DNA of 64,000 nt, taken from Elusimicrobiota bacterium (GTDB lineage Bacteria; Elusimicrobiota; Elusimicrobia; UBA1565; UBA9628). Numbering within the stretch: position 1 is the first letter of the stretch; every line of letters begins with the position of its first letter. Location of the stretch: the NCBI GenBank assembly GCA_016212855.1, contig JACRDP010000028.1, positions 1 to 64,000 on the forward strand. The letters run 5' to 3'. Below, piece after piece: positions 731-63,416 of this stretch. The position numbers were made by a program, and so were the translations under genes. The notes beneath the pieces were generated by a model, which worked only from the letters and a program-made list of their open reading frames with translations, was not told where the DNA came from and did no database searches.

Positions 731-763
731 TTGACTTTCTGCATATAGTTGTATATACTACTA
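731..763 (+). promoter_or_regulatory. Promoter and overlapping palindromic operator of the MarR gene
   Basis: TTGACT (731-736), a 17-bp spacer and TATACT (754-759) form a near-consensus sigma-70 promoter. The 18-bp palindrome TAGTTGTATATACTACTA (746-763, one mismatched pair) covers the -10 and reaches the start codon. This is the arrangement expected for an autorepressing MarR dimer. Confidence 0.75.
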
Positions 764-765
764 TG

Positions 766-1239
766 ATGGGTGCTCGGGCATTCGATTGGAATTCAACCCT
801 CGAAGAGTGTCGCGGCTGCGTTTGCTTTCAAGTCAAGCGCGGCATGCGCGCTTTGGTGTCCGCATACGACGACGCGCTCCGGCCGAGCGGGCTTAGGTCC
901 ACGCAGTTCTCAATGCTCGGCGTCATCCGCGCTTGCGGTCCACTGACCTCGAAGAAGCTCGGGGAACTCATGGTCATCGACAAGACGACCCTCGCCCGCA
1001 GTGCCGCTCTCCTGTCGCGCGAGGGGCTAATCCAGGTCAACGAGGGAAACGATCGCCGTGAAAAACTTTTGAGCTTGACCGAGGAGGGCGCGACGCGATT
1101 CCGGCGCGCATACCCGCTTTGGAAGAGCGTACAGAACCGCATCCTTCGCGGCGCCGGGCGGCCGGTGATCGAGGATTTGACCCGTCATCTGGCCGCCGTC
1201 GTCGAGGCGGCGCAGAATGGAGGCTCCCATGGGAAGTGA
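766..1239 (+). CDS. MarR family transcriptional regulator
   Basis: This is a 157-residue winged-helix regulator of MarR type and length. An N-terminal dimerisation helix (CFQVKRGMRALVSAYD) is followed by the recognition region LTSKKLGELMVIDKTTLARSAALLSREGLI and the wing NEGNDRREKLLSLTEEG. MarR proteins bind palindromic operators and usually repress themselves and adjacent genes until a phenolic or oxidant ligand is bound. ATG occurs at both 763 and 766; 766 sits exactly at the predicted transcription start, six bases after the TATACT, so the mRNA is probably leaderless. The next gene overlaps its end, which suggests that the membrane protein is its co-transcribed target. The ligand is unknown. 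Confidence 0.88.
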   Translation: MGARAFDWNSTLEECRGCVCFQVKRGMRALVSAYDDALRPSGLRSTQFSMLGVIRACGPLTSKKLGELMVIDKTTLARSAALLSREGLIQVNEGNDRREKLLSLTEEGATRFRRAYPLWKSVQNRILRGAGRPVIEDLTRHLAAVVEAAQNGGSHGK

Positions 1240-1753
1240 TTCTCAGGCTGCATGCGGTTGTCCTGTCAGCCCGGCTCGGGGGACGCTCGCGGCGATCTCA
1301 GCCTGGGTCGTGCTCCAAACGGTCACCGCGCTTGCTTGGACCAATCCTCTGACGACTCGCATCATCCTGACGACGGAGTTCGGCCAGAGCCCTAAGCTGA
1401 TCGAGGTTTGGACGCGTCTGAAGCCGCTGCCCCGCATCACGGAGAATCCGCCCATCGCCATGATGCTCGGGTATCTCTTGTTCACTCTCATTCATGTCGG
1501 GTTGTTCGTGAAGCTGTTCAAGGCTCTCCCTGGACGCGGCTGGCAGGGGAAGGGCGCGTCATTGGGGATGGGGATATTCGTTTTCCAGTACTGCTACTTC
1601 GAATTCTTCGGCCCGTTCAATCAATACCACGAGCCTCTTAGGCTGATCAGCTATGAGCTGCTCCTCCAAGGCCTCATGGCCTTCTCGGAGGCGCTCATGA
1701 TCTCTTGGATGCTCACGCCCCGCCTTCAGCGGCGGAGCCCTGAGGCCGCCTAA
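1229..1753 (+). CDS. Four-span membrane protein co-transcribed with MarR gene
   Basis: This encodes 174 residues with about four hydrophobic spans, near residues 20-40, 75-95, 110-130 and 150-170. The chosen ATG at 1229 has GGAGG (1219-1223) five bases upstream; an alternative ATG at 1217 has none. It overlaps the MarR gene by 11 bp, so it is translationally coupled. The N-terminus holds a CGC motif and the second loop is Pro-rich (KPLPRITENPPIAM). I do not recognise a family. Context suggests a MarR-controlled inner-membrane protein, possibly part of a stress or detoxification response, but that is inference. Confidence 0.65.
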   Translation: MGSDSQAACGCPVSPARGTLAAISAWVVLQTVTALAWTNPLTTRIILTTEFGQSPKLIEVWTRLKPLPRITENPPIAMMLGYLLFTLIHVGLFVKLFKALPGRGWQGKGASLGMGIFVFQYCYFEFFGPFNQYHEPLRLISYELLLQGLMAFSEALMISWMLTPRLQRRSPEAA

Positions 1754-1756
1754 GCC

Positions 1757-2089
1757 ATGGCGTACGATCGACGTCTGGCAGAGCGCGTCAGACGCGAGCT
1801 CGAGCGGTACAAGGGTGTGAGCGAGATCGAGATGTTCGGCGGACTCTGCTTCACGCTCCGCGGCCGCATGGTGGTCGGCGTGCTCAAGGATGAACTGATG
1901 GTCCGGCTTTCGAAGTTGGAGAACGCCGCGACCTCCCGGGAGCCGTATGTTCGCCCTATGGATCTCACTGGCCGCCGCATGAAGGGCTTTCACTTCGTGA
2001 ACCGAGCCGGACTTAGAACTTCGCCGCAACTGCGTCGCTGGATCGAGCGATGCGCGAATTATGTCGCAACTCTGCCGCCGAAGGTCTGA
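1757..2089 (+). CDS. TfoX N-terminal domain protein
   Basis: This 110-residue protein has the family signature: an N-terminal helix (LAERVRRELERY), then EIEMFGGLCFTLRGRMVVGVLKDELMVRL, then a conserved block around RPMDLTGRRMKGFHFV. Stand-alone TfoX N-domain proteins are common in bacteria. The Sxy/TfoX relatives control competence genes, but the single-domain forms have no established biochemical role. The gene starts three bases after the membrane protein and ends just before a strong terminator at 2103, so MarR, membrane protein and TfoX-like gene form one operon. Confidence 0.85.
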   Translation: MAYDRRLAERVRRELERYKGVSEIEMFGGLCFTLRGRMVVGVLKDELMVRLSKLENAATSREPYVRPMDLTGRRMKGFHFVNRAGLRTSPQLRRWIERCANYVATLPPKV

Positions 2090-2102
2090 AAGGATAGTCC
2101 CC

Positions 2103-2132
2103 AAGCCCTCCAGTGTTGGAGGGCTTTTTTTT
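2103..2132 (+). terminator. Intrinsic terminator of the MarR operon
   Basis: AAGCCCTCCA, loop GTGT, TGGAGGGCTT, followed by eight T residues. The stem is almost the same as the one after tRNA-Gln at 384. Confidence 0.93.
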
Positions 2133-2174
2133 GTTCCAATACATCCGGATTCACGGCGCTCGCGGGGGATTTGC

Positions 2175-2504
2175 ATGGGTGAGGTGCTCGATGTCGACGG
2201 CTTGGCGGCCTATTCGGCCGGCGCGGTCGTCAGCCGGACTTTGATCAAGCGGGATACGGGCTCGGTCACCGTTTTCGCCTTCGATAAAGGCGAAGGTCTC
2301 AGCGAGCATACCGCCCCATTCGACGCCCTCGTCCACGTGTTGGACGGCGAGGCCGAAATCACCGTGGGCGGCGTCGTCCATCAGGTCCGGGCGGGACAGA
2401 TGATCGTCATGCCGGGCGGCACGCCGCACGCGCTCAAGGCGACCGAGCGCTTCAAGATGACGTTGTTTTTGGCGCGAGTCGCAGACAGCCGGAACATCGC
2501 CTAG
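2175..2504 (+). CDS. Cupin domain protein
   Basis: This is a 109-residue single-domain beta-barrel cupin. Motif 1 is visible around HTAPFDALVHVLDGEAEITVGG and motif 2 around GQMIVMPGGTPHALKA, retaining the histidines and glutamate of a divalent-metal site. Small cupins of this type act as dioxygenases, isomerases or sensory proteins; nothing here fixes the substrate. The ATG at 2175 follows a GCGGGGG ribosome site and lies beyond the terminator at 2103; the open frame further upstream would run through that terminator and is rejected. Three bases separate it from the downstream membrane protein. Confidence 0.8.
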   Translation: MGEVLDVDGLAAYSAGAVVSRTLIKRDTGSVTVFAFDKGEGLSEHTAPFDALVHVLDGEAEITVGGVVHQVRAGQMIVMPGGTPHALKATERFKMTLFLARVADSRNIA

Positions 2505-2506
2505 CC

Positions 2507-3133
2507 ATGGAATTGATTCCGTTGCTCGTCTTTTGGGTGAGCGTCTTCGAGGCCGCCCGGCTGATGGGCAAGTTCAAAGGCGAGAGCCGAAAAAGCGCTT
2601 ACACGTTGGCCGCCGGCATCTGGGCCATCGTGACCGTCTACGCGATCCTTCACGACCAGTACATCGTGCGCCTCGCGCCGGAGCACTTCACCGTGTATCA
2701 CGATCCCATGTGGGGACTCCGGCGGCCGCGGGCGATCGCGCTGGCCTACGCGTTCCGCGGATTGTGGTATCCCGGCATCCTTCTCGGGATGGCCTGCACT
2801 TTGGCCGCTCGTGCGGACTCGATGCCGCGGCTGAGACCGCGCTTCGTCCTGAAGGGCGTCGTCGGCGTCACCCTCTTGACCGAGTTCATTTCCATCGTCT
2901 CCGGCATCGTCGCCTACCAAAGGGGGCAGGGCATCTATCCCGCCGGGTTCTACCCCGACCCGAGGCCGATCCTGCAGGTGACGCAGACCATTCAACTGAC
3001 CGGCTATTGGAGTTCCGCGCTGTGGTGCTGCTTCATGATCGGCGTCTTCGTCGGGTTGCGTTACGGCCCTGACGGCCTGCCGGGCTCAAGAGCTCCGCAG
3101 GATTCGTTTTCAGGATCTGCAGCCGCGTTTTGA
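2507..3133 (+). CDS. Multispan membrane protein of unknown function
   Basis: This encodes 208 residues with about five hydrophobic segments: an N-terminal span (LIPLLVFWVSVFEAARL), one around AAGIWAIVTVYAIL, one around YPGILLGMACTLAA, one around GVVGVTLLTEFISIVSGIV, and the last near WCCFMIGVFVGL. It lies three bases after the cupin gene and probably forms an operon with it. I do not recognise a family. Its last 101 bases overlap the 3' end of a convergent gene on the other strand, so one of the two C-termini may be longer than the functional protein. Confidence 0.6.
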   Translation: MELIPLLVFWVSVFEAARLMGKFKGESRKSAYTLAAGIWAIVTVYAILHDQYIVRLAPEHFTVYHDPMWGLRRPRAIALAYAFRGLWYPGILLGMACTLAARADSMPRLRPRFVLKGVVGVTLLTEFISIVSGIVAYQRGQGIYPAGFYPDPRPILQVTQTIQLTGYWSSALWCCFMIGVFVGLRYGPDGLPGSRAPQDSFSGSAAAF

Positions 3134-3446
3134 TCTGCTCGACGCTGCCCACGGCCCACTCATCACGGGTGGCCGGGTATTTACCCGCCTCGTACGCGCA
3201 CGCCGCGGACAGGAGCTCCATGATCCGCGGGTCCTCCTTGTAGAACGCGATCAGCATGTACGCGCAGAAGGGCTCGCGGTCGTGCGAGAGGTCGTTCTCG
3301 ACGAGATACGTGAGTAGGAGCAGCTTGTTTTTTATGACCCCGCTCCCTTCGTTCTCGTCGGCCAACAGCAGCCCGGTCACGCGCTCGGAGAAGCCGGGGT
3401 CCTTGGGATCGAGCGTCCGGGCGAACGCCTGGTCGTCTTCGTCCAT
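3033..3446 (-). CDS. Hypothetical acidic helical protein
   Basis: About 137 residues, predicted soluble and helical (KNKLLLLTYLVENDLSHDREPFCAYMLIAFYKEDPRIMELLSAACAYEAGKY). No family is recognised. It follows the MoaD-like gene: a TTG at 3461 would overlap that gene's stop (TTGA), while the ATG at 3446 is the more conventional start. It ends with a basic tail (ATRRRRRS) and overlaps the convergent membrane protein gene. Position suggests co-transcription with the propeller/MoaD pair. Confidence 0.5.
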   Translation of the reverse strand: MDEDDQAFARTLDPKDPGFSERVTGLLLADENEGSGVIKNKLLLLTYLVENDLSHDREPFCAYMLIAFYKEDPRIMELLSAACAYEAGKYPATRDEWAVGSVEQIKTRLQILKTNPAELLSPAGRQGRNATRRRRRS

Positions 3447-3457
3447 CGAGGCGTGAG

Positions 3458-3754
3458 TCAACCCCCGGCGATCGACGCGACGACGAGGAACGGCTCGTCG
3501 CCGGCGGCGACCGCGGAGGGCAGGACCGCGTCCGGCGACTCGTTTGATAAGTCCTCGGAGCAGGCGTAGAAGCGCACGAGCGGCCGGCGCTTCTTCGTGA
3601 CGTGGTCCCGGATGGTGCCGCAGAGCGCGGGGTACCGCGCCTCGAGGGCGTCGAGCACTGCGCGTTGGGTGACCGGGGCGGAGACCTCGAACTTCGCCTC
3701 GGCCGGGACGCGGGCCAAGGTCCGGAGAAAAGACGGCACGATGACGCGGACCAT
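3458..3754 (-). CDS. MoaD/ThiS-type ubiquitin-like protein ending in Gly-Gly
   Basis: This is a 98-residue beta-grasp protein. It begins MVRVIVPSFLRTLARV, the first beta strand, has ALEARYPALCGTIRD in the helix region, and ends VVASIAGG. The C-terminal GG is the hallmark of sulfur-carrier and ubiquitin-like proteins, which are adenylated or thiocarboxylated there by an E1-like enzyme. The gene starts at the base after the stop of the BNR-repeat gene, so the two are coupled. Pairs of a BNR or sialidase-like propeller with a MoaD-like protein are seen in many bacterial genomes, but the function of the pair is not established. No MoeB or ThiF gene is in view. Confidence 0.8.
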   Translation of the reverse strand: MVRVIVPSFLRTLARVPAEAKFEVSAPVTQRAVLDALEARYPALCGTIRDHVTKKRRPLVRFYACSEDLSNESPDAVLPSAVAAGDEPFLVVASIAGG

Positions 3755-3756
3755 CT

Positions 3757-4911
3757 TTACTTGATCGTCTGGACCGAGACCGACAGGACGTGCGGCAGGT
3801 CTCGCACGATGGCGTTCCACGAGTTTCCGCCGTCGGCGGAGGCGTACACCTGGCCGCCCGTCGTGCCGAAGTAGACGCCGCACGGCTTCATCGCGTCGAC
3901 GGCCAGCGCGTCGCGCAGGACGTTGACGTAGCAGTGCTCCTGCGGCAGGCCCTTCGTCATCGCCTTCCAATTGCGCCCGCCGTCCTTCGAGCGGTACACG
4001 CGCAGCTTGCCCGACGGGGGAATGCGCCCCTTTTCCGGGTCGATCGGGATGATGTACACCGTGTCGGGGTCGTTGGCGTCGAGCGCGATCGGGAAGCCGA
4101 AGTCGTTGGGCAGGCCTTTGTTGATGTCCTTCCACAGTCCGCCGGCGTTCTCGGTCTTGAGCACGCCGCCGTGCAGCTGCATGTACAGGGTCTCGGGCTT
4201 GGCCGGATGCTGGGCGATGCGGTGGACGCAGTAGCCGACCTCGGCGTTCTTGTCGGGGATGTACTCGGAGTGCAGGCCCTTGTTGATCGGCCGCCACGAG
4301 ACGCCCGCGTCGTCGGAGCGGAACGCGCCGGCGGCGGAGATCGCGGCGAACATGCGTCCCGGCACGGCCTTGTCGAGCAGGATCGTGTGCAGGCACAGGC
4401 CGCCCGCGCCGGGCGCCCACTGCGGCGCCGTCGCGTGCGTGCGCAGGCCGGGGAGCTCTCTCCACGTGCGGCCGCCGTCGGTCGTCTTGAAGAGCGCGGC
4501 GTCCTCGACGCCGGCCCAGCAGACGTCCGGATCCTTCAGGTCGGGCTCGAGATGCCAGACGCGCTTGAACTCCCACGGCTTCAGCGTGCCGTCGTAAAAC
4601 AGATGCTTGCCGACCTGGCCGTCGTAGACGAACTTGTTGGACTCGCCGCGAGGCATGCCGTTTTCCACCGTCGGGCCGCCCCCGGGCGTCTCCCAGGTCT
4701 TGCCGCCGTCGGAGGAGCGCTGGATCACCTGGCCGAACCAGCCGCTCGTCTGGGAGGCGTAGATCCGGTTCGGGTCGGCGGGAGAGCCGGCCATGTGGTA
4801 GACCTCCCACCCGTGGAAGAGCGGGCCGTTGATCTTCCACGACTTGCGCTTGGCGTCCGACGTCAGGATGAACGCGCCCTTTTTGGTTCCGACCAGGACT
4901 CGGATTTTCAT
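3757..4911 (-). CDS. BNR-repeat (sialidase/VPS10-like) beta-propeller protein
   Basis: This 384-residue protein carries repeated Asp-box motifs ([32 protein letters not shown]) spaced along its length, which define a beta-propeller. There is no signal peptide, so it is predicted to be cytoplasmic. The sialidase active-site arginines are not obvious, so a glycosidase role should not be assumed. Its promoter is leaderless: TTGACC (4941-4946), 17 bp, TAGTAT (4918-4923), six bases, ATG. The MoaD-like gene follows immediately, so the propeller may be its partner or modification target. Confidence 0.85.
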
Positions 4912-4917
4912 AGGTGG

Positions 4918-4987
4918 ATACTAATACTCTCCAAGCTCCGGGTCAATGCGATGCGCTCTTGACGAAGCCGGCCCGAGGGGCTACCCT
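4918..4987. promoter_or_regulatory. Divergent leaderless promoters
   Basis: On the minus strand, TTGACC (4941-4946), 17 bp, TAGTAT (4918-4923), six bases to the ATG at 4911. On the plus strand, TTGACG (4959-4964), 17 bp, TACCCT (4982-4987), six bases to the ATG at 4994. Neither leaves room for a Shine-Dalgarno. Confidence 0.7.
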
Positions 4988-10971: not shown

Positions 10972-11065
10972 CCATCAATCATAGGGCAAATCCGGATTTT
11001 TCAGAAGGGTCTTAGGGGCCGGAGCGCCTAGGACTAAAAATTAGGTCTTTTTGACCTTCTCCGAC

Positions 11066-11094
11066 GTGAAATTGAAACATACCCCTGGTATACT
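11066..11094 (+). promoter_or_regulatory. Leaderless promoter
   Basis: GTGAAA (11066-11071), 17 bp, TATACT (11089-11094), then six bases (GGGGGC) to the ATG at 11101. The -10 is extended by an upstream TGG. Confidence 0.65.
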
Positions 11095-11664: not shown

Positions 11665-11681
11665 TTCGCTAGAATCGCCGC

Positions 11682-17552: not shown

Positions 17553-17582
17553 GGCGCAATGTATCAAAAAAACCCGGCGGCG

Positions 17583-21096: not shown

Positions 21097-21137
21097 CTTG
21101 TTGCCTCCATCTGTCCGTGCTTCCGGCAAATAAAAAA

Positions 21138-21172
21138 GCCAGAAGAACGGACGTGTTGTCCATTCTCCTGGC
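21138..21172 (-). terminator. Attenuator-like hairpin in the leader of the repeat-protein gene
   Basis: A 15-bp stem (GCCAGGAGAATGGAC / GTCCGTTCTTCTGGC on the minus strand), followed by six T residues. The two positions that mismatch on the plus strand become G-U pairs on the minus-strand RNA. It sits about 40 bases before the start codon. Next to it is a second stem GCCCGAA/TTCGGGC (21175-21193). Confidence 0.75.
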
Positions 21173-21332
21173 GTGCCCGAATTCGGTTCGGGCGTGGATG
21201 CTCCCCGGCCAAATTCCAGGGATTACAGGTTCTGCCCAAAGGATATTCCATTATCAATATCATACCAGGGCCGAAGGGCCCATGTATACAGGTAGTCTTT
21301 GGACCTACGCGAATATTTTTAGGGGGGTAAGT

Positions 21333-22933: not shown

Positions 22934-23016
22934 ACGCACATTCTACCAAGCTTCCACATACGGCATGGAACTTTTTAGGGGGGGCAATCGTCTGGTAAGC
23001 GAGCCCAGGTGCGCGA

Positions 23017-23421: not shown

Positions 23422-24145
23422 GGCGGGACGCCCACGCCTCGGCCGCCGCCAGCTTCTGCGCGTCGCCGATGTCGTACCACTCCCAGGCGTCCCCGCGGAA
23501 TCCGTGGATATCAGCCCCGGCGGCCGCGAGCCGCAGATACGTCTTGGTGATCGAGAAGACGCCGCTCTCGGTGATCTTGTCGAGAAGCTCGGGCGAGATT
23601 GCGTGGATGCCGTCGAAGGGAAGCCGCCGGGCGTCGGGAACCGGGCCCTTGGCCCAGGTGACGTTGCCCTCGCCGCGATCGTGGCCGGCGAAGCGGCCTT
23701 TCGCGTCGAAGAGGTAGGCCCGGCCGCTCTCGCGCTCGCGCACGGACAAGGTCGCCAGCGCGCCGGTGTCCTTGTGGGCCTTGAGCAGGGCCTTGAGATC
23801 GAGATCGGTGAGCACGTCCGCGTTGTGGACGAAGAACGGCTCCCGGCCTTTGAGCAAAGCCGACGCCTTTTTGATCGCGCCTCCGGTGTCGAGCAGCAGA
23901 TCGTCCTCGCGCGAGACCGAGATCGGGATGACGAGGCGTTTGGACAGACCCGCGCAGAAGTCGGCGATTTGGCGCGGGAGGTGATGCGCGTTGACGACGA
24001 TGGATTTAACGCCCGCGGCCTTCAGCCGGACCGCCGTGCGTTCGAGCATGGGCACGCCGCCGACCGGGATGAGCGCCTTGGGCGTCGTGTCGGTCAGAGG
24101 CTTGAGGCGCGAGCCGACGCCGGCGGCGAGGATCAGCGCCTTCAT
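23414..24145 (-). CDS. NDP-sugar nucleotidyltransferase, MurU-like
   Basis: This 243-residue enzyme starts MKALILAAGVGSRLKPLTDTTPKALIPVGG, the full nucleotide-binding signature (G-x-G-x-R and PK) of sugar-1-phosphate nucleotidylyltransferases. VHNADVLTDLD gives the metal-binding Asp. In MurU this chemistry turns MurNAc-1-phosphate into UDP-MurNAc, recycling peptidoglycan while bypassing MurA. Assignment to MurU rather than a mannose or glucose enzyme rests on the upstream AmgK-like kinase, which overlaps it by four bases. Confidence 0.8.
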   Translation of the reverse strand: MKALILAAGVGSRLKPLTDTTPKALIPVGGVPMLERTAVRLKAAGVKSIVVNAHHLPRQIADFCAGLSKRLVIPISVSREDDLLLDTGGAIKKASALLKGREPFFVHNADVLTDLDLKALLKAHKDTGALATLSVRERESGRAYLFDAKGRFAGHDRGEGNVTWAKGPVPDARRLPFDGIHAISPELLDKITESGVFSITKTYLRLAAAGADIHGFRGDAWEWYDIGDAQKLAAAEAWASRPT

Positions 24146-25572
24146 GCCTTCGGCCAGCTCTTCGTCTCGCGGTGCGCGACCACGGCGGACACGCCCTGGT
24201 CGCGCAGATGCTTGGCCAGGCGCTCGGCCAGGTACACCGAGCGGTGCTGGCCGCCGGTGCAGCCGAAGGCGACGAACAGGTCGGTGAAGTTGCGGCGGCC
24301 GTAATCCTCGACGGTCTGGTCGACCAAGGAGAACGCGGAGCGCGCCCAGCGGTCGACGGCGTCTTCCTTTGATAGAAAGGCGACGACCGGGGCATCCAAC
24401 CCGGACGAAGCTTTGAATTCGACCAATCGGCCCGGATTCGGCAAACAACGGCAATCGAACACGAAGCCGCCGCCGTGTCCTGAATCGTCCTTGGGCATGC
24501 CTTTCTTGTAGGAGAAGCTCTGGATGCGCACGGTGAGCTTGAGCTTGGCCGACCCGAACTGGCGCAGGGCGGAGGAGCCGACGAGGCGCTTGAATACGCC
24601 CATCAGCTCCGGAACCTCGACCGGCAAGCCGGAGGTCAGCAGGACATGTTCGATGTTGCGGATCGCGTAGGGAATGCTTTGGAGGAACAGCGGCTTCTTT
24701 TCGTGGAAGCCGCGCAGGCCGTAGGCGCCCATGGCCTGCATGATGCGGATCAGGACGAAGCCGGGGAAGTATTTTTTGAACTCGCGCTTATCGATCTTGG
24801 CATGCTTGGACGCTTCGGCTATGTAGAGATCCAAGAGCTCGTCTCTGAGTTCGAAAGGCACGTCGGCCTTCGCGTCGTATAAAAGAGACGCTATGTCGTA
24901 CTGCAAGGCGCCGCGGCGGGCGCCCTGGTAGTCGATGAAGTACGGCTTGCCGTCGCGCAACATGACGTTGCGCGATTGAAAATCGCGCAGGAGCAGGTGC
25001 TTGCGCTCGGCGGCGAGCAGATAGCCGGCGAAGACCTGGAAGTCCTCCTCGAGCCGTTCTTCGTGGAAGGGAATGCCGCCCAAGGTCAGGAAGTAATATT
25101 TGAAGTAATTCAGGTCCCACAGCATCGACCGCCTGTCGAAGCTCTTGCGGGGATAGCACCACTTGTCGTCGGCGGTCTTGCCGGCGACGATCTGGATCTT
25201 GGGGAGCCAGCGCACGACGTCTTGGTAAGAAGCGACGACGTCGCGAGGAAACCCGGCGGCGGTGCGCTTCTTGCTCAGGAACTGGAACAGAGCCAGGTCG
25301 CCCAGATCCTCTTCGAGATAGGCCGAACAGTTCGCGTTCTCGCCGTAAAATTCCGGCACCGGAATTCCGTTTTTGTGAAAGTGCTTGGAAAAGTCGATTA
25401 ACGCGCGATTTTCCTTCAAATCGTCGTTGAGCACGCCGATGGCCGTGCGGCCGGCCCCGCTCAGCCGGTAGATGCGGCGGTTGGAGCCCTCGGCCCGGAC
25501 CGGGACGAGGGAGGCGGACTCGCCGAACTTTGCGCGGAACAGGTCTTTCAGGGCGTCGAGCGGGTCGGACAC
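24142..25572 (-). CDS. AmgK-like sugar phosphotransferase fused to RapZ C-terminal domain
   Basis: This is a 476-residue fusion. Residues 1-330 are an aminoglycoside-phosphotransferase-fold kinase with LLLRDFQSRNVMLRDGKPYFIDYQGARRG, the catalytic loop and metal motif seen in AmgK (anomeric MurNAc/GlcNAc kinase). Residues about 345-476 match the RapZ C-terminal domain (FVFDCRCLPNPGR, FVAFGCTGGQHRSVYLAERLAKHL), which in Enterobacteria senses glucosamine-6-phosphate. The fusion suggests that cell-wall sugar recycling is sensed or gated by a sugar-phosphate pocket on the kinase itself. Leaderless GTG: GTGTCA, 17 bp, TAATAT, six bases. Confidence 0.85.
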   Translation of the reverse strand: MSDPLDALKDLFRAKFGESASLVPVRAEGSNRRIYRLSGAGRTAIGVLNDDLKENRALIDFSKHFHKNGIPVPEFYGENANCSAYLEEDLGDLALFQFLSKKRTAAGFPRDVVASYQDVVRWLPKIQIVAGKTADDKWCYPRKSFDRRSMLWDLNYFKYYFLTLGGIPFHEERLEEDFQVFAGYLLAAERKHLLLRDFQSRNVMLRDGKPYFIDYQGARRGALQYDIASLLYDAKADVPFELRDELLDLYIAEASKHAKIDKREFKKYFPGFVLIRIMQAMGAYGLRGFHEKKPLFLQSIPYAIRNIEHVLLTSGLPVEVPELMGVFKRLVGSSALRQFGSAKLKLTVRIQSFSYKKGMPKDDSGHGGGFVFDCRCLPNPGRLVEFKASSGLDAPVVAFLSKEDAVDRWARSAFSLVDQTVEDYGRRNFTDLFVAFGCTGGQHRSVYLAERLAKHLRDQGVSAVVAHRETKSWPKA

Positions 25573-25578: not shown

Positions 25579-25629
25579 ATATTAGCGTTTTCGGCGTCTA
25601 TTGACACCCCAAGTCTTCGGGCCTATACT
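25579..25629. promoter_or_regulatory. Divergent promoters sharing one -35 element
   Basis: On the plus strand, TTGACA (25601-25606), 17 bp, TATACT (25624-25629). On the minus strand, GTGTCA (25602-25607), 17 bp, TAATAT (25579-25584), six bases to GTG 25572. The two -35 hexamers overlap by five bases, so the polymerases should compete. Confidence 0.75.
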
Positions 25630-28275: not shown

Positions 28276-28339
28276 GGCCCACGCCCGCTTTCCCAAGGGG
28301 CCCTTTCGCGAATGCCGGGCCTCTGCTATAAATAGAATA

Positions 28340-29524: not shown

Positions 29525-30153
29525 GCGAGCCCTGCCCGCTGTGCGCTGGCGCGGCGCGCGCGTTCCATCGTTCCGACCGCGAGTTCCTGCGTTGCGGGAC
29601 CTGTGCGCTGACCTTCGCGAGCGCGTCCTCACACCTGTCGGCCGAAGCCGAGCGCGCGCGCTACGAGACGCACCAGAACAGTCCCGCCGACGCGGGGTAC
29701 CGCGACTTTCTCGACAAACTTCTGGCGCCGCTGTCCGCGCGCCTGACTCCGGGCGCGAGCGGGCTCGACTTCGGCAGCGGGCCGGGGCCGACCGTTTCGG
29801 TGATGATGCGCGAGCGCGGATTCACGATGCGCGATTACGACCCGCATTTTTCGCCGGACGAGGCGCCATTGCGCGCGAAGTACGCTTTCGTGACCTGCAC
29901 CGAGGTCGCCGAGCATTTACGCCGGCCCGCCGAGGTCTTCAAGAGGCTCGACGGACTGCTCGTGCCGGGCGGTGCGCTCGGCGTGCTGACCGGAGTGCTC
30001 GAGGACGACGCGGCCTTCCCGGCGTGGTGGTATCACCGCGATCCGACCCATATCGCGTTTTATCGTCCCGAGACCATGGCCTGGCTCGCGAAGCGCTTCG
30101 GCTGGACGCTCGAGCGCCCCTCCCGGGACGCGGCGCTGTTCTTCAAGCTATAA
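29521..30153 (+). CDS. Class I SAM-dependent methyltransferase with N-terminal zinc ribbon
   Basis: This 210-residue protein starts with CPLC ... CGTC, a zinc ribbon, then a Rossmann methyltransferase domain with SGLDFGSGPGPTVSVM as motif I, and TCTEVAEHL and PGGALGVLTG as later motifs. This combination is common among enzymes acting on sugar or polyketide intermediates and on small proteins; the substrate is unknown. The GTG overlaps the stop of the DUF4105 gene. The promoter of the next gene lies inside its 3' end. Confidence 0.82.
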   Translation: MSEPCPLCAGAARAFHRSDREFLRCGTCALTFASASSHLSAEAERARYETHQNSPADAGYRDFLDKLLAPLSARLTPGASGLDFGSGPGPTVSVMMRERGFTMRDYDPHFSPDEAPLRAKYAFVTCTEVAEHLRRPAEVFKRLDGLLVPGGALGVLTGVLEDDAAFPAWWYHRDPTHIAFYRPETMAWLAKRFGWTLERPSRDAALFFKL

Positions 30154-30160
30154 TGGCGGC

Positions 30161-33882: not shown

Positions 33883-34022
33883 AGCGTATTCTACCGCGCC
33901 TGCGGGCCGCCGCTCTGGGCCCTGCGTCCCCATTTCCATCAGGCCTTACGGTCCTCCATGTCCCCTGATTTTGGCGCTCTTACGTCACGATGGCTCTGAT
34001 GCAGCCATGACTTGGAGACATG

Positions 34023-34080: not shown

Positions 34081-34109
34081 TTGACAAACGCTCCCTACGG
34101 GGCTACAGT
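34081..34109 (+). promoter_or_regulatory. Promoter of the cNMP-patatin gene
   Basis: TTGACA (34081-34086), 17 bp, TACAGT (34104-34109), eight bases to the ATG at 34118, so the transcript has almost no leader. Confidence 0.72.
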
Positions 34110-35869: not shown

Positions 35870-35894
35870 CGCGGCCCGATCCCCCGGCTACACT
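35866..35894 (+). promoter_or_regulatory. Leaderless promoter of the CheY-like gene
   Basis: TTGACG (35866-35871), 17 bp, TACACT (35889-35894), six bases to GTG 35901. The -35 overlaps the stop codon of the upstream gene. Confidence 0.72.
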
Positions 35895-39231: not shown

Positions 39232-39272
39232 AGGTTAAGGACAAATATCGGTCGGGCGGTTACCATGGACAT

Positions 39273-41476: not shown

Positions 41477-41523
41477 ATTGTAGTCACATATACTTAAGTT
41501 GTCAAGGCCCTCTTTGCTATCAT
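41477..41523. promoter_or_regulatory. Divergent promoters with overlapping -35 regions
   Basis: On the minus strand, TTGACA (41500-41505), 17 bp, TACAAT (41477-41482), nine bases to the ATG at 41467. On the plus strand, TATCAT (41518-41523) ends six bases before the ATG at 41530. Any Rrf2 binding here would affect both genes. Confidence 0.65.
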
Positions 41524-49387: not shown

Positions 49388-49401
49388 ATTATAGCTATAC
49401 T
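49388..49401. promoter_or_regulatory. Overlapping divergent -10 elements
   Basis: Within the 14 bases ATTATAGCTATACT, the minus strand reads TATAAT (49388-49393), six bases from the ATG at 49381. The plus strand reads TATACT (49396-49401), five bases from the ATG at 49407. The two melted regions almost touch, so only one promoter can open at a time. Confidence 0.72.
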
Positions 49402-49406: not shown

Positions 49407-50876
49407 ATGTTCGAGAGCGCCGAAGTGGGCCGTTCGGTGGACAAAAAGGAGTACGAAAAGCGCGTGGAGGCCCTGCGCACGCGCATCCTCAAGGCCCAGC
49501 ATGCCCTCGCGGACACGCATCTGCGCCTGGTGGTCCTCGTCGGCGGCGTCGAGGGCGGCGGCAAGACCGAGGTGGCGCGGCGTTTTCTCGACTGGATGGA
49601 TCCCCGCGGCCTGCAGGTGGAGGCCTACGGCGATCCCTCGGACGAGGAGAACGAGCGTCCCGAGTACTGGCGGTATTGGCGCACCTTGCCCGCGGCGGGG
49701 CATGGCGCGATTCTCGTGGGTTCCTGGTATACGCGCCCCATCGTGGCGCGCGTCTTCAAACAAATCGGCTCCGGCGGCTTCGACCAGGCGCTCGACCGGG
49801 CCATGGCCTTCGAGGCGATGCTGGTCCGCGAGAAGACCGTGCTCGTCAAGCTGTGGCTGCATCTGTCCAAGAAGGAGCAGAAGCGCCGCTTTAAGGAACT
49901 CGAGTCCGACCGCGACACGGCCTGGCGGGTGACGAAGCAGGATTGGGAGTTCTCGAAGAAATACGACCGCTTCCGCGGGACCTGCGAGCGCGCGCTCTCC
50001 AAGACCAGCGTGGCCGAAGCGCCGTGGACCGTGATCGAAGCCACGGACCGCCGCTACCGCGACCTGGCCGCCGGCGAGGCGGTCGCGGCCGCGATCGAGA
50101 CGGCGCTGAAGAAGGCCGCGGCGACCGGCCCCAAGCCCGCCCCCGACCGCGCGAAGCCGCCCAGGGTCTCGATTCTCAGCCGCCTCGACCTAGGCATGCG
50201 CCTGGAGGGCGATCACGGCAAGAAATTCGAGAAGCAGCAGACGCGCGTGGCGCTGCTGTCGCGGCGGCTGCGCAAAGAGGGACGCTCCCTCATCTGCGCC
50301 TTCGAGGGAGTGGACGCCGCCGGAAAGGGCGGGTCGATTCGCCGCCTGCTGGCCGCCATCGACGTGCGCAACGCGCGCGTGATGGCCGTGGCCGCGCCGA
50401 CCGACGAGGAGCGCGCGCATCCCTATCTGTGGCGCTTCTGGCGCAACCTGCCCCGCCTGGGGCACGCGACGATCTACGACCGCACCTGGTACGGGCGCGT
50501 GCTCGTCGAGCGCGTGGAGGGCTTCTGCGCGAAGGAGGACTGGACGCGCGCCTACGCCGAAATAGCCGCCTTCGAGGAGGAACTGACCGAGTCCGGCGTG
50601 ATCGTCTGCAAGTTCTGGTTGCAGATCTCGCCCGAGGAGCAACTCAGGCGCTTCAAGGATCGCGTGAAAACGCCGTTCAAGCAGTACAAGATCACCGAGG
50701 ACGACTGGCGCAACCGTAAGAAGTGGGACGCCTACCAGGCCGCCGCGGTCGACATGATCGAGAAGACGAGCACCCCGGACGCTCCTTGGACCATGATCGA
50801 GGCCGAGGATAAACGCTGGGCGCGCTATCAGGTGATGAAGGCCGTCGCCGACCGCTTGGAAGAGGAGCTCGGGTGA
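49407..50876 (+). CDS. pap: Polyphosphate:AMP phosphotransferase (double PPK2 domain)
   Basis: This 489-residue protein is made of two PPK2 domains. The first has a degenerate Walker A (GGVEGGGKTEVARRF) and lacks the usual Asp in the P-loop. The second is canonical: FEGVDAAGKGG (Walker A), YDRTWYGRV (Walker B) and the lid RFWRNLPRLGH. This two-domain form is the class II PPK2, or PAP, which transfers phosphate from polyphosphate to AMP giving ADP. It overlaps a FIST-cyclase gene, which suggests that energy state is linked to cyclic nucleotide signalling. Confidence 0.93.
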   Translation: MFESAEVGRSVDKKEYEKRVEALRTRILKAQHALADTHLRLVVLVGGVEGGGKTEVARRFLDWMDPRGLQVEAYGDPSDEENERPEYWRYWRTLPAAGHGAILVGSWYTRPIVARVFKQIGSGGFDQALDRAMAFEAMLVREKTVLVKLWLHLSKKEQKRRFKELESDRDTAWRVTKQDWEFSKKYDRFRGTCERALSKTSVAEAPWTVIEATDRRYRDLAAGEAVAAAIETALKKAAATGPKPAPDRAKPPRVSILSRLDLGMRLEGDHGKKFEKQQTRVALLSRRLRKEGRSLICAFEGVDAAGKGGSIRRLLAAIDVRNARVMAVAAPTDEERAHPYLWRFWRNLPRLGHATIYDRTWYGRVLVERVEGFCAKEDWTRAYAEIAAFEEELTESGVIVCKFWLQISPEEQLRRFKDRVKTPFKQYKITEDDWRNRKKWDAYQAAAVDMIEKTSTPDAPWTMIEAEDKRWARYQVMKAVADRLEEELG

Positions 50877-53887: not shown

Positions 53888-53950
53888 GATGACATGATAC
53901 CGCCGCCGCCGCCGACGGACCAGAGCCCAAAGGCCCGTCCGGCGTAGGCC

Positions 53951-55298: not shown

Positions 55299-55313
55299 AT
55301 TGTAACAGTTACA
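55299..55313 (-). promoter_or_regulatory. Leaderless -10 overlapped by TGTAAC-A-GTTACA
   Basis: On the minus strand TACAAT (55299-55304) ends seven bases before the ATG at 55291. A perfect 6-1-6 inverted repeat (55301-55313) covers its upstream half and would block the promoter if bound by a regulator. Confidence 0.5.
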
Positions 55314-56803: not shown

Positions 56804-56896
56804 GTGGGAATTGTAGCAAAGAGACGGCGAGCGTCCGTCGCAGACTGGGCATGCGGAGCTCTCCTTCGCGCAGTGAAATGTCGTAACATTGCGCCC

Positions 56897-58603: not shown

Positions 58604-61600
58604 ATTTCTTGAGGGAGCGGCCGAGCCAGACGTAGACGGCGGCTACGGCGGTGTAGAAGGCCGCGAAGGCGGCGAAGGCGCCGACGCCGAGCCAGGCGAA
58701 CAGGCCGCCCCAAAGCAGGAAGCCGAAGACGTGCGTGAGGTAGATCAGCCCTCGGATCGCCCCGACGGTCACGTCCTTGTTTTCCTTGGGGATGTTCGAC
58801 TTCATGATGACGTCGAGATGGTTGGACGCGAGCTGGGCGGTGAAGCCGATCGCGAGCAGGGCGATGGAGACGGGGAACATCGGCCAGATCAAGGTGCCGA
58901 TCTGAAGGGAGCTGGTGAGCAGCCAGGAGCCGAGCAGGGCCGCCGCGGCCCACGGCATGACGCGCGCCGCGCTCGCGGCGTAGAGGCGGCGCTTGCCGTC
59001 CTTGCGCTCGGCCTCGGGCAGGGACTCGACCGATTTGTCGAGGCGCGCGGCCATGCGGTCCATGACGACCGCGCCGATCAGGGCGCCCACGCCGTAAACC
59101 GCGGTCAGCGAGCCGGCGACGCCCGCGGCGTGCTCGGGGCTGTTGGTCGCGTACGCGCCGAAGGCGGTCGCGACGATGTAGTACATCATGTACAGGAAGC
59201 TGTTGACGAGGGCGAAGCCGATCAGCGGCTTGAGGATGCCGGGAACCTTGAACACCGTGCGGAAGCCGGTCTTGATGCCGTCGATCCACTTGCCGGCCAT
59301 CCGGGGCCCCGCTTCCGGAAGCGCGAGGAACAGCGCGAGCGCGGCGGCGAGGCCGAAGGCGACCGGCGCGGGGTAGATCACCGCGCCGAAGCCGAACGCG
59401 GCGACGACGAGCGCCATCGCCGAGCCGATGAAGACGGTGCCGTACTCGATGAAGTCGCGGAAGGAGCCGAAGCGGCTCGATTTGACCTCGTCCTGCTGGA
59501 ACCAGGCGACCTGGAGGCTGTGCTCGGCGACGCGACCGATGGAGTGGAAGAAGTAGTCGAGCGAGAACAGCGGAATCAAAGCGATGAGGGCGATCGTGCC
59601 CGTCGCGGGGTTGAACAGGAGCGCGAGCGCCGTCCAGATCAAGGCGCGCGTCACGAGCACGGCCCGGTAAGTCTTTTTTATTCCGAAGCGCTTGAGGATC
59701 GGGCCGCCGAGGAAGGAGCCGAGCGTGTAGGCGCCGTAGCTCACGCTGGTCAGCGCGGCGAGCGCGAGGAAACCCTGCGAGAGCGGTTGGGTCATCTGCG
59801 AGACGGCCAGCGAGGTGGACTCGACCACGGTCGAGACGAGCAGGAAGGTGGACAGGAAGCCGAGGACGCGCTTGGAGAACAGGCTCGGCGCTTCGTCTAT
59901 AACGGAATCGTCGGCGGCCGGTGCCGCCGGCGGCGCTTCAACCTTCGGAAGCGGGGCCAAGTCGTCGGCCGTCGGCTGTTGGTAGTCGCCGCGGGCGCGG
60001 ACGATCTCGCCGTTGTCGCGCTTGATGCGCAGGACCAGGCGGCGCGCGGCCTGGAGCGCCGAGCGGATCGCGTCGCGCCAGGTCCTGCCCTTGCCGATGA
60101 CCTCGGCCCACTCCTCGTAGGCGTTGTCCTTGGCCGCGACGATGCGGTCGCCCTTCTCGACGAACACGCGCGCGAGCTCGACGCCCGGCATGTTGCGCGC
60201 GGACTCGAGGCCTTCGACGCCCTCGAGCGTGCCGTTGCGGCTCGAAGCGAGGAAGATATAGTGGATGACGCCGTCCGGCGCGTGTCCCGGGTCCACCGGC
60301 AGGCCGAGCGTCGCGCGGAAGCCCTGCTCGACGAGGCTCATTCCGGTCAGGCTCTTGACCGCCTGCCAGATCGCGACGCCGCCCATGAACGGGTTGATCT
60401 CGATGACGCGCGGGCCTTCCGGCGTCGAGAACATATCGAGGCGGGCGTTGCCGTCGGTGAGGCCGAGAGCCTTCAGCGCGCGTTCGGCGGAGGCGATCAG
60501 CTCCGCATGGTCGCCGACGGCCGTCTGCCCGGGGAAGATCAGGATGCCGCCGGCGAGCTGCCCTTTCTCTCCGAGACCCTTCGTGTCGGAGACGATGGCG
60601 AAGGCGGCCTTGGCGTTCTGCATGACGACTTCGACCGAGGTCTCCTCGGTGCCGGGATTCTTTTCCAGCATCCGCTCCATCATGATGCCCGGGTGCGAGC
60701 TGAAAGTCGTCTGCTTGGCCTCGGGGCGGGCGACAAAGTCGCGCACGGCCGCGTCCATCTTAAGGTAGGCGGCGGCGGCCTCGTTCTCGGACTTGATGTT
60801 CAGGTCGAGGAAGCGGCTGTTCTCGCCGCGGCTGGTCTTGATCATGACCTTGTACTTGCCGTTCTCGGAGACGTCGTGGTACGCCTGGCGCGCCTGTTTC
60901 TCGCTGGCGATCTCGGCGTAGGCGACGGTCTGCGTCGGGTCCGTGTTGAGCCGCTTGCGCGCCTCGGGCTTGCGGTCCGCCGCGGCGACGACGTCGCCCG
61001 GGATGCCCTTCGCGCCGAGCTTGTCCGTGATGCGGCCGGTGAGGCTCGCGTACAGGCTCATGAAGCCGACGACCGCGTACGCCTTCGCGCCCTCGGGGTG
61101 CGCGGCGACGGCCTCGGAGATCTTGCCCATCGTCTTTGAGTCGCGGGTGTTGATGGGCGCGGCGATGAAGTGAGAGTCGGGGATGGAGCCGGCGGAGTTC
61201 TTGCGGTTGGCGGGGTCGTCCACGAGCACGAGGTTCAGTCCCAGCTCCCTGGCGACGCGCAGCGCCTCCTCTATAATGAAGGGCCGCGAGCCTTTCGTGC
61301 CGACCATGACCACGGTCTTGCCGTGGACGGCGATTTCTTCCGGCGTCTGAACGCGTTCGGTTTGGGGCGCGTCGGACGACATCGCGGCCGAGACGTGCGC
61401 AGCAGAGTGGAACAGCGCGGCCTGGGCGAGGACGTCCGCGGGAATCCGGTTCGCGGATGCGGGAACGGCGGAAGCGGCGGCGGCGGGGACCAGCGGAGCG
61501 GGCGTGCCGCCGGGGGCGAGCGACGGCGCCGACAAGAAGCCGAGCGAGGGGGTGAGAAGCGCGGACGGCGCGGCGGAGAGGGGGGAGACGATCGCCGCGC

Positions 61601-61727
61601 CCGCGGCGGAATTGGCGGGGGCGTTCGCGGCGCGCGCCGCGACGGTTTGCGCCCACGCCGGCCAGGGCGCGAGGATGAGTATGAGCGAGAAGATGACGGA
61701 CATCGCGGAACGAACGCGAGCTTTCAT
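58602..61727 (-). CDS. Signal/Ala-Pro linker protein with ATP-grasp ligase fused to MFS transporter
   Basis: This is a 1041-residue protein. Residues 1-27 are signal-like (AMSVIFSLILILAPWPAWAQ), and 28-135 an Ala/Pro/Ser linker. From 137 (KTVVMVGTKGSRPFIIEEAL) there is a pre-ATP-grasp Rossmann-like part. ATP-grasp motifs are K297 in VMIKTSRGEN, SVEVVM near 364-369 and IEINPFMGG (442-450, the metal-binding E-x-N). This resembles amino-acid or peptide ligases. An MFS transporter with about 12 spans begins near 620 (RVLGFLSTFLLVSTVVEST). The fusion suggests synthesis of a ligation product and its export by one polypeptide. Ligase chemistry needs cytoplasmic ATP, so the N-terminal segment must be an anchor, not a cleaved export signal. 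Confidence 0.8.
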   Translation of the reverse strand: MKARVRSAMSVIFSLILILAPWPAWAQTVAARAANAPANSAAGAAIVSPLSAAPSALLTPSLGFLSAPSLAPGGTPAPLVPAAAASAVPASANRIPADVLAQAALFHSAAHVSAAMSSDAPQTERVQTPEEIAVHGKTVVMVGTKGSRPFIIEEALRVARELGLNLVLVDDPANRKNSAGSIPDSHFIAAPINTRDSKTMGKISEAVAAHPEGAKAYAVVGFMSLYASLTGRITDKLGAKGIPGDVVAAADRKPEARKRLNTDPTQTVAYAEIASEKQARQAYHDVSENGKYKVMIKTSRGENSRFLDLNIKSENEAAAAYLKMDAAVRDFVARPEAKQTTFSSHPGIMMERMLEKNPGTEETSVEVVMQNAKAAFAIVSDTKGLGEKGQLAGGILIFPGQTAVGDHAELIASAERALKALGLTDGNARLDMFSTPEGPRVIEINPFMGGVAIWQAVKSLTGMSLVEQGFRATLGLPVDPGHAPDGVIHYIFLASSRNGTLEGVEGLESARNMPGVELARVFVEKGDRIVAAKDNAYEEWAEVIGKGRTWRDAIRSALQAARRLVLRIKRDNGEIVRARGDYQQPTADDLAPLPKVEAPPAAPAADDSVIDEAPSLFSKRVLGFLSTFLLVSTVVESTSLAVSQMTQPLSQGFLALAALTSVSYGAYTLGSFLGGPILKRFGIKKTYRAVLVTRALIWTALALLFNPATGTIALIALIPLFSLDYFFHSIGRVAEHSLQVAWFQQDEVKSSRFGSFRDFIEYGTVFIGSAMALVVAAFGFGAVIYPAPVAFGLAAALALFLALPEAGPRMAGKWIDGIKTGFRTVFKVPGILKPLIGFALVNSFLYMMYYIVATAFGAYATNSPEHAAGVAGSLTAVYGVGALIGAVVMDRMAARLDKSVESLPEAERKDGKRRLYAASAARVMPWAAAALLGSWLLTSSLQIGTLIWPMFPVSIALLAIGFTAQLASNHLDVIMKSNIPKENKDVTVGAIRGLIYLTHVFGFLLWGGLFAWLGVGAFAAFAAFYTAVAAVYVWLGRSLKK

Positions 61728-61876
61728 TGGTTGTGATGTTATCATGCGATAACCGCGCACGTTGTTGAATTTGGTCCCACTGACGAAAGGCAATCGAACT
61801 ACGTTTCTGGTGGGTCCTTCGTCGGAGCGCGGTGGGCCTAAGGTCCCCGTCGCGGAGAAAATGCTACGATCGCGCC

Positions 61877-62692
61877 ATGCTCAAACTCTATTTTCTCGCG
61901 GCTCTTTTCGCGGCGGCGACGCCGTCTTTGGCCGCGACGGAAACCGTGATCGTACGCGCGGTGGCGACGGATCCGGCTTGGAAGAAGGCGACGGACGCCG
62001 ACTGGATCGACCGCATCGTCGCGGAGGTCAAGACGGCGGTGAAAGACGGCGCGGACGCGATCGTTTTCGCCGAGGGCTTTTCCACGGGACGCCGCCTCGA
62101 CGTTCTTCTGCCTTATCTCAAGACCGAGGCGGGACCCGACCGGCTCATCGTGCTCGGCAACGCTCCGTATCAGGAGCCCGGCAAAGACTACGCGGTGAGC
62201 CGCGCTCAAATCTATTCGGACGGCGCGTGGGTCGCGCTCGACAAGCTCGATCCCGAGCCTTCGGAGTTGAGCGCGAAGCCTCAGGTGCGGCCGGGAACGC
62301 GTCTCATCTTGTTCCGCTTTCGCGGCGGACTCATCGCCGCGCTTCCGGCCTACTCGCTCCTGAAGCCCGAGATCGCCGCGTCGCTCAAGAAGCGCGGGGT
62401 CGCATTGGTGCTCGTCACCGCGCCGGAGGAGGACGAAGACGGGCGCGCGCGTACCGAGCGCGTCGCCTCCGGCCGCGCGGCGGAACTGGGCGCAGCGGTC
62501 GTGGTCGCGTCGCCGGCGAAGACGCCGGCTCTGTACCTTCCCGCCCAGAAGGGCTTCGACCTCAAGCCCAAGGCGGCCGCGGGCCGCGATGTTCGGATCC
62601 CTTGGAAAAAGCTGCTCGAAATCCGCACGCCGGACAAGGCCGAGCGCCGCCCCTTCCTCGATCCGGTTCCGGGCTACCAGACCGAGATATAA
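61877..62692 (+). CDS. Secreted nitrilase-fold protein lacking the catalytic cysteine
   Basis: This encodes 271 residues with a signal peptide (LYFLAALFAAATPSLAA). The sequence follows the carbon-nitrogen hydrolase fold: DAIVFAEGFST (Glu of the triad), RAQIYSDGAWVALDKLDPEPSE (Lys) and LIAALPAYSLLKPEIAASL. The last segment aligns by eye with the nucleophile elbow, normally CYDxxFPE; an Ala stands where Cys should be. The protein is therefore probably not a nitrilase, but a binding or scaffold form. TACGAT (61865-61870) ends six bases before the ATG: leaderless. Confidence 0.6.
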   Translation: MLKLYFLAALFAAATPSLAATETVIVRAVATDPAWKKATDADWIDRIVAEVKTAVKDGADAIVFAEGFSTGRRLDVLLPYLKTEAGPDRLIVLGNAPYQEPGKDYAVSRAQIYSDGAWVALDKLDPEPSELSAKPQVRPGTRLILFRFRGGLIAALPAYSLLKPEIAASLKKRGVALVLVTAPEEDEDGRARTERVASGRAAELGAAVVVASPAKTPALYLPAQKGFDLKPKAAAGRDVRIPWKKLLEIRTPDKAERRPFLDPVPGYQTEI

Positions 62693-62718
62693 CGCTGAGG
62701 CTGACCAGCGGCGGTTTT

Positions 62719-62738
62719 AACTCTTCGTGCGAAGAGTT
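62719..62738. repeat. Perfect hairpin AACTCTTCG-TG-CGAAGAGTT
   Basis: A 9-bp stem with a two-base spacer in the 175-bp gap after the nitrilase-like gene. There is no T run, so it is more likely an RNA stability element or protein site than a terminator. Confidence 0.5.
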
Positions 62739-62867
62739 CTGCATGTCTGGCACCGTTGCGCCGTCTCCGTAACCCCTCCAACACCGTCGCCAAACTTCGG
62801 CGGCTGACCATATACTAAGGAAGCCGCGTGAAATACTCGCGAAATATGGACGCGCTACACTCGCGGC

Positions 62868-63416
62868 ATGATCAAACGCGCCCTCGCCGCCGCCTTGCTG
62901 CTCGCCGCGCCGTCCTTCGCGGGCGAGAAAATGACCGTGAAGGACGCGGGCGGCTTCGATCCGGCGGGCCGGACCGTGGAATTTCCGGACCGCTTCGGCT
63001 GGACTTCGTACGAGGCCTCGTTCGCCTTTTCCCTCGGCGACGATAGGACCTTGGAAAATTCGTCCCGGCTCGATCTCATCATCCACCGGCGCGGCGGGGG
63101 AAAGTGGAAGTACTCCTGCCGGGCGTCGTCCGAGGAGTTGTCGGCGAGAGTCGTTCCCCTCGGAGGACGCGTCTCGGTGATCGCCGAGTGCCGCGTGCGG
63201 CCGAAAGCGTTCGCCAAAGCCGTGGATCTCGACGCCGACGACGTCGGCGCGCCGGTATTCGTATTCGAAGCCGTGCTCGAGGGCGGCCAGGTCCGCGCGG
63301 GCGGTCAGCGCGGCCTGCGCTTCCGGCCCGATTCGCCCGTGGCCTCGCTCGACCTGAACCCTTACGCGTCCTCTCCGGACGCGGCCGGACTGGCGCTCGT
63401 CTTTCGCAACGAGTAA
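62868..63416 (+). CDS. Secreted hypothetical beta-rich protein
   Basis: This encodes 182 residues with a signal peptide (RALAAALLLAAPSFAGEK). The mature part is beta-rich (GRTVEFPDRFGWTSYEASFAFSL; WKYSCRASSEELSARVVPLGG) with two cysteines that may pair. No family is recognised. TACACT (62856-62861) ends six bases before the ATG, so it is leaderless. It stands alone between the nitrilase-like gene and the right-hand Ala/Pro-rich protein. Confidence 0.55.
   Translation: MIKRALAAALLLAAPSFAGEKMTVKDAGGFDPAGRTVEFPDRFGWTSYEASFAFSLGDDRTLENSSRLDLIIHRRGGGKWKYSCRASSEELSARVVPLGGRVSVIAECRVRPKAFAKAVDLDADDVGAPVFVFEAVLEGGQVRAGGQRGLRFRPDSPVASLDLNPYASSPDAAGLALVFRNE

Follow-up and report, generated by a model that had tools for sequence, protein, structure and literature searches.

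We analysed a 64,000-nucleotide stretch of DNA, referred to here as the window (contig C23, positions 1-64,000, of genome G000, a metagenome-assembled genome of 2.5 Mb in 30 contigs and 72.7% complete), from a member of the Elusimicrobiota, and found that many of the genes at the head of a transcription unit are preceded by a TAnnnT hexamer lying a few bases, and mostly six, before the start codon. We interpret this hexamer as part of a sigma-70-type promoter which abuts the start codon and would often give leaderless mRNA at operon-first genes, and we give this reading a probability of roughly 0.92. It is supported by the position of the hexamer, an extended -10 element, the spacing to a -35 element, a pyrimidine/purine signature at the start codon, near-absence of the motif from internal genes, the rarity of Shine-Dalgarno (SD) sites where it is found, and conservation in orthologues; what is observed directly is the motif itself, where it lies, its promoter grammar, the degree to which it is conserved and the lineages that have it.

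Genes were called from in-frame hexamer coding statistics alone, which makes the choice of start codon blind to the upstream sequence, both in the window and in 400 kb of G000 beyond it (referred to here as the sample; it is part of the genome and not the whole). A gene was counted as first if its upstream neighbour is divergent or lies 40 bases or more away on the same strand, and as internal if the same-strand gap is 10 bases or less; the motif gap is the number of bases between the -10 hexamer and the start codon, with a tested range of 5-9. With these blind starts, 12 of the 38 first genes in the window have TAnnnT beginning at -12, where 0.33 would be expected per position (Poisson, 3e-15), as do 20 of 141 in the sample, where 1.43 would be expected (1e-16), and over the positions -15 to -11 the counts are 20 against 1.7 expected in the window and 50 against 7.2 expected in the sample. 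Motif discovery upstream of first genes had been proposed as a check in an earlier preliminary description of the window, and when undertaken in the sample as a search for short gapped patterns it ranked TA.A.T at -12 at the top (14 first genes against 0.4 expected), with GGAG at -11 as the top pattern of internal genes. The motif is present at gaps 5-9 in 47/141 first genes of the sample compared with 2/194 internal genes (1/26 in the window and 5/178 in another genome, G158), and SD cores were identified at 82 of the 194 internal genes over a background of 23. Whole-genome counts in G000 of TANAMT placed six bases before ATG gave 131 occurrences, whereas a gap widened to 12 bases gave 16 and the pattern in reverse gave 10. 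The -12 peak recurs in genomes G158, G126, G163 and G165 (13-27-fold) and in G086 (8.9-fold), and the positional enrichment of the hexamer predicted by the preliminary description was found in the sample as well as in these five other genomes.

The bases around the hexamer resemble those of a promoter. Amongst 127 gap-6 sites from six samples belonging to families f1 and f2 the consensus is TGnTAnAAT, with T at -15 in 61 sites, G at -14 in 93, A at -9 in 61% and A at -8 in 58%. Matches of at least four of six bases to TTGACA upstream of 242 motif sites are most frequent at a spacer of 17 (32 sites), compared with 1-15 sites for the other spacers between 10 and 25 (the runners-up are spacers of 20 and 18, with 15 and 12 sites, respectively). 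A -10 hexamer normally spans -12 to -7 relative to the transcription start, and one that occupies these same positions relative to the start codon therefore predicts a transcription start at the first base of the codon. A pyrimidine at -1 and a start codon of ATG or GTG are expected if transcription begins on a purine at codon position one, and a pyrimidine was found at -1 in 106 of the 127 gap-6 sites, compared with 279/432 first genes lacking the motif (p=3e-5) and 378/719 internal genes, with the start codons of the gap-6 sites comprising 92 ATG, 34 GTG and a single TTG (TTG is used by 56 of 719 internal genes, p=0.0016). SD sites are found at 12/237 genes with the motif compared with 159/566 of the others (p=2e-15), and the anti-SD CCTCC is intact in all ten of the 16S tails examined from relatives (G000 itself gave no 16S match).

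In the mechanism that we propose, TAnnnT would be the -10 element of a sigma-70-type promoter (TGnTAnAAT), assisted in a subset of sites by a TTGACA-like -35 element at a spacer of 17; transcription would begin on the A or G that opens the start codon, or no more than about three bases from it, and the operon-first genes of the Elusimicrobia lineage would often be translated from leaderless or nearly leaderless mRNA. Internal genes would depend instead on SD sites or on four-base stop/start overlaps, using ribosomes with the anti-SD that is intact in relatives. The preliminary description had internal genes overlapping as ATGA or GTGA, which is the case for about half of them (a four-base overlap in 13/26 in the window and 102/194 in the sample) and not for the rest. 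It also listed eight GGAGG-type leaders, and in six of these GGAG does begin 10-12 bases before the start; the leader of 2175 has GGGG only and in 58194 GGAG begins at -18.

The motif is retained by many orthologues of the window genes. Matches with less than 45% identity or 60% coverage, starting after residue 12, or having no start codon were excluded, and under a uniform blind rule TAnnnT at gap 5-9 was found in 46/63 orthologues of 11 of the 25 genes listed in the preliminary description (the other 14 had no orthologue passing these filters amongst the sequences compared, and L222 and L280, which represent one place of one genome, are counted twice). None of the 46 orthologues with the motif has an SD core, compared with 8 of the 17 without, and all eight of these are PPK2-family genes. 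In the orthologues of gene 25572 the start codon alternates between ATG and GTG and the box and its spacing are constant, and one orthologue of gene 22933 (L047) was scored as having no motif because the blind rule chose TTG, when TAGACT can be seen by eye six bases before an in-frame GTG. Motif status is also concordant in orthologue pairs with blind starts (88 of 146 pairs were usable, 38 of these being first genes), with the motif in both members of 10 first-gene pairs, in one member of 7 and in neither member of 21 (p=4e-4). Gene 34118 encodes a 583-amino acid protein for which the matches listed are partial, at 25-52% identity, with none fit for judging conservation, though distant full-length homologues may exist.

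The PPK2-family gene at 49407 behaves differently, with the box at gap 6 in 8/21 orthologues. Some relatives keep a TTGAC-17/18-TATACT arrangement at gap 6, and in six relatives from the same genus (L210-L213, L215 and L216) it is found 15-21 bases from the start, with an SD core in the leader of four of the six. We interpret the PPK2 box as a promoter and not a ribosome signal because it would be surprising for a ribosome-binding site (RBS) to shift its distance from the gene and take a -35 element along.

The preliminary description regarded leaderless transcription as the rule in this genome. The motif is the commonest start signal that we found at operon-first genes, but outside the window it accounts for about 37% of these and for 65/386 of all genes in the sample. 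The share of first genes was obtained by counting the motif with any in-frame ATG or GTG close to the start that had been called, less the count from a shifted control. The corrected values are 57% in the window (raw 23/38), 37% in the sample (raw 59/141) and 28% in G158 (raw 58/182), and Bacteroidota, G025 and G053 gave 5%, 6% and -3%, respectively. By the same measure 150 kb of the Deinococcus radiodurans plasmid MP1 gave 16%, compared with the 37% seen here, though the plasmid may not represent that genome. An alternative estimate using a weight matrix (55% for the window, 30% for the sample, 22% for G158 and 12% for MP1) was dropped because its best-case threshold also gave 13.5% in G053, 9% in Bacteroidota and 7% in G025, a floor of about 10%. 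SD remains the signal of internal genes.

We determined the distribution of the motif by comparing whole-genome counts of TANAMT-6-ATG and TANAMT-12-ATG in 149 Elusimicrobiota genomes with Bonferroni correction (families are given the anonymous labels f1-f23, and the class name Elusimicrobia is inferred from named relatives). The median ratio is 2.10 in the class Elusimicrobia, with 61/71 genomes significant, compared with 1.07 in the other classes, with 2/78 significant. Within the class, families f6 (two genomes with ratios of 0.95 and 1.03) and f9 (one genome, 1.00) are negative, the single genomes of f5 (1.54) and f8 (1.92) do not reach significance, and neither do four of the f4 genomes and one of those from f3. 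The gene-based peak was found in f4 (G086, noted above) and was not significant in f6 (G053, 1.0-fold) or f9 (G124, with 57% G+C, 1.9-fold, p=0.28); G025 from f3 is positive by whole-genome counts (171 vs 75) and has a weak gene-based peak in 200 kb (2.1-fold, p=0.03). A mid-point rooted 16S tree of 12 rows, including two fragments but without f5, f7 and f8, has a branch with 100/100 support that separates f1-f4 from f6, f9 and two genomes from other classes. The distribution fits a single gain inside the class Elusimicrobia. We also considered bS21 as a correlate, but PF01165 was found in 139/149 genomes from positive and negative families alike and leaves the split unexplained; ten genomes have no PF01165 match, including the incomplete G000 (72.7%), G106 and G120.

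It might be argued that TAnnnT is not a promoter but an AT-rich translation signal of the Bacteroidota kind, with transcripts beginning further upstream, as the motif occupies the usual position of an RBS and non-SD RBSs are used by 10.4% of bacterial species (quoted in PMC9581028). We consider this very improbable. Internal genes also need to be translated and, by our own reasoning, an RBS of this type should be present there, yet the motif was found in just two of the 194 in the sample; the extended -10 and the -35 at a spacer of 17 are promoter grammar; the six PPK2 relatives hold the same -35/-10 pair 15-21 bases before the start codon, and an SD core is present in four; and 12 Bacteroidota loci, hand-picked from 80 matches to the protein encoded at 24142-25572, have no significant -12 peak (1.4-fold, p=0.21). 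Chance or base composition, combined with selective listing in the preliminary description, has next to no credibility as an explanation, for although the window is richer in sites than the sample (57% vs 37%), the peak is repeated with upstream-blind starts, in the sample beyond the window and in five further genomes, and G053, G124 and the Bacteroidota loci give no significant peak under the same code. A variant which overlaps with our reading accepts that the -10 is real but has many transcripts beginning 1-5 bases before the start codon. Gaps of 7-9 do exist, and gap-7 sites (from the window, the sample and G158) have a pyrimidine at -2 in 18/26 and at -1 in 12/26, which rather suits a one-base leader, and the smaller peak at gap 9 may represent a three-base leader; on the other side, the mode is exactly six, with a pyrimidine at -1 and a purine at +1, and we regard this variant as unlikely but deserving of some weight.

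It should be noted that these gap-7 and gap-9 sites count against a promoter which invariably abuts the start codon, and that other observations also weigh against our interpretation. The gene caller is a simple one using coding potential only, and errors in start calls are possible; a pyrimidine at -1 is also fairly common in first genes without the motif (the 279/432 given above); 82 of the 141 first genes in the sample have no motif at the tested gaps; and a base-by-base comparison of identity in the blind orthologue pairs showed no clear footprint, although with eight motif pairs these data are too thin. The claim in the preliminary description that the -10 abuts the start codon and that the mRNA is leaderless is strongly supported by the sequence as regards the promoter, and from this we infer the exact 5' ends, the zero-length leaders and the translation of leaderless messages.

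Closely spaced divergent genes have the motif on both sides more often than distant ones do. It was two-sided in 12/24 divergent pairs with starts 15-40 bp apart compared with 10/88 pairs separated by more than 100 bp (p=1e-4; the six f1 and f2 samples), and the 12 two-sided pairs have 17-35 bp between start codons, a spacing which depends on the start calls. In some of these pairs, though not all, the -10 boxes abut or overlap, and in the window the start codons of 49381 and 49407 are 25 bp apart with -10 boxes separated by 2 bp (by eye, L209 has a similar arrangement upstream of PPK2). Where the start codons are no more than about 25 bp apart, each predicted -35 region would lie inside the coding sequence of the opposite gene. 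We suggest, at what we judge to be even odds, that leaderless transcription arose or expanded once in the class Elusimicrobia and allowed genomes to pack in this manner, with divergent starts 17-35 bp apart served by one segment of opposed and sometimes touching or overlapping -10 boxes, no 5' untranslated region on either side, and, at the closest spacings, -35 elements within the opposite coding sequence.

The preliminary description listed 25 start codons in the window, of which the blind caller agreed with 22 (differing at 766, 4994 and 55291), and TAnnnT was confirmed at gap 5-9 for 24 of the 25, with 17 at six, three at five, two at seven, one at eight and one at nine. A -35 matching TTGACA at five or six positions with the spacer of 17 that had been described is found at six of the 25 starts. 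These are ATG 766 (-10 TATACT, 754-759 (+), -35 TTGACT), ATG 4911 (TAGTAT, 4918-4923 (-), TTGACC), ATG 4994 (TACCCT, 4982-4987 (+), TTGACG) and GTG 35901 (TACACT, 35889-35894 (+), TTGACG; the motif was found in 0/1 homologue, at 52% identity), all at gap 6, plus ATG 34118 (TACAGT, 34104-34109 (+), gap 8, TTGACA) and ATG 41467 (TACAAT, 41477-41482 (-), gap 9, TTGACA). The remaining gap-6 sites on the forward strand are TATACT (11089-11094) for ATG 11101, TAGAAT (11670-11675) for ATG 11682, TATAAT (30149-30154) for ATG 30161 (motif in 3/4 orthologues), TACCAT (39261-39266) for ATG 39273, TATCAT (41518-41523) for ATG 41530, TACGAT (61865-61870) for ATG 61877 (1/1) and TACACT (62856-62861) for ATG 62868 (1/1). 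Those on the reverse strand are TATGAT (10978-10983) for GTG 10971, TAGAAT (22940-22945) for GTG 22933 (4/6 by the blind rule), TAATAT (25579-25584) for GTG 25572 (8/8), TATAAT (49388-49393) for ATG 49381, TATCAT (53894-53899) for ATG 53887 and TACAAT (56810-56815) for ATG 56803, which encodes a NupC-type transporter (11/11). Gap-5 sites are TACATT (17558-17563 (-)) for ATG 17552 (2/2), TAGAAT (33888-33893 (-)) for ATG 33882 (1/1) and TATACT (49396-49401 (+)) for the PPK2-family ATG 49407, and gap-7 sites are TACAAT (55299-55304 (-)) for ATG 55291 and TAACAT (56884-56889 (+)) for ATG 56897 (7/7). The sole exception is GTG 28340, where TATAAA (28327-28332 (+)) lies at -13 and the single TAnnnT in the 20 bases before the start leaves a gap of 1.

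Several of the genes in the window have features of their own. Gene 21096 provides a contrast to those above, as it has an SD-led leader (GGAGG, 21097-21126 (-)) below a match to the 2dG-II purine riboswitch (21163-21233 (-), 60.7 bits against a gathering score of 60) located 66 bases upstream; the leader of this gene may be regulatory. The gene at 24142-25572 (-) appears to fuse an AmgK-like kinase part to a RapZ-like C-terminal part, both below the NCBIfam cut-offs. The protein matches Elusimicrobia or Elusimicrobiota metagenome-assembled genomes (MAGs) at 79-85% identity and one at 61%, with the complete chromosome CP096137.1 included amongst the matches, and relatives are also found in Bacteroidota and Neomarinimicrobiota MAGs. 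The products of 10971 (-), 28340 (+) and 33882 (-) look secreted, with Ala/Pro/Ser-rich stretches following a signal-peptide-like start. Hydrophobic N-termini were found for 71/183 first genes with the motif compared with 101/401 others (p=0.001; six f1 and f2 samples, genes of at least 300 bp), and we treat this as no more than a lead, since wrongly called starts amongst the genes without the motif would give the same difference.

These findings would extend leaderless expression to a poorly studied and mostly uncultured phylum, in which families with and without the signal offer a natural comparison for the gain of leaderless initiation, and in which PPK2 is a case for single genes shifting between leaderless and SD-led starts. 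They also provide a practical aid for choosing start codons in these genomes, as models based on SD only would be expected to misplace starts; the guide offered by the preliminary description is useful for the ATG and GTG starts of first genes. A search of titles and opening abstracts found no paper reporting leaderless genes in Elusimicrobiota (subscription papers and supplements lay outside this search, and large surveys may include a member); Elusimicrobi* is absent from the main text of PMC3160421, and the available parts of PMC10783764 list anti-SD types for Elusimicrobia and Endomicrobia and do not call them leaderless. The leaderless style is known in other bacteria, with leaderless genes predicted for 21.6% of bacterial species (as quoted in PMC9581028), and within the Elusimicrobiota it looks like a trait of one branch.

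The closest parallel is with Deinococcus-Thermus, where leaderless genes have TANNNT about 6-7 bp before the open reading frame (PMC12340547, PMC3160421) and the motif acted as a promoter -10 in reporter tests (PMC12340547). In Deinococcus-Thermus 39.4% of genes are leaderless on average (46.1% in D. radiodurans), compared with 19.2% in Actinobacteria (PMC3160421). The hexamer and spacing seen here are the same, with GGAG at other genes alongside, but the phylum is a different one and an extended -10 (G at -14), together with a -35 at a spacer of 17 in a subset, is read here from sequence alone. Leaderless transcripts are reportedly produced by Mycobacterium tuberculosis, the case from the Actinobacteria, and our genomes are like those of this group in having a high G+C content, the TAnnnT pattern and a mixture of leaderless and SD-led genes. 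The Actinobacteria are nonetheless an unrelated phylum in which leaderless genes have been mapped experimentally, whereas ours are predicted from sequence. The divergent pairs also recall the bidirectional promoters of E. coli, reportedly described by Warman in 2021. In E. coli the commonest distance between the divergent starts of such promoters is 18 bp, and distances of 10 and 23 bp are frequent too (PMC12825309). In both systems opposed -10 elements share a short segment and divergent starts are tens of bases apart, but unlike in E. coli, both directions are predicted here to open directly on start codons.

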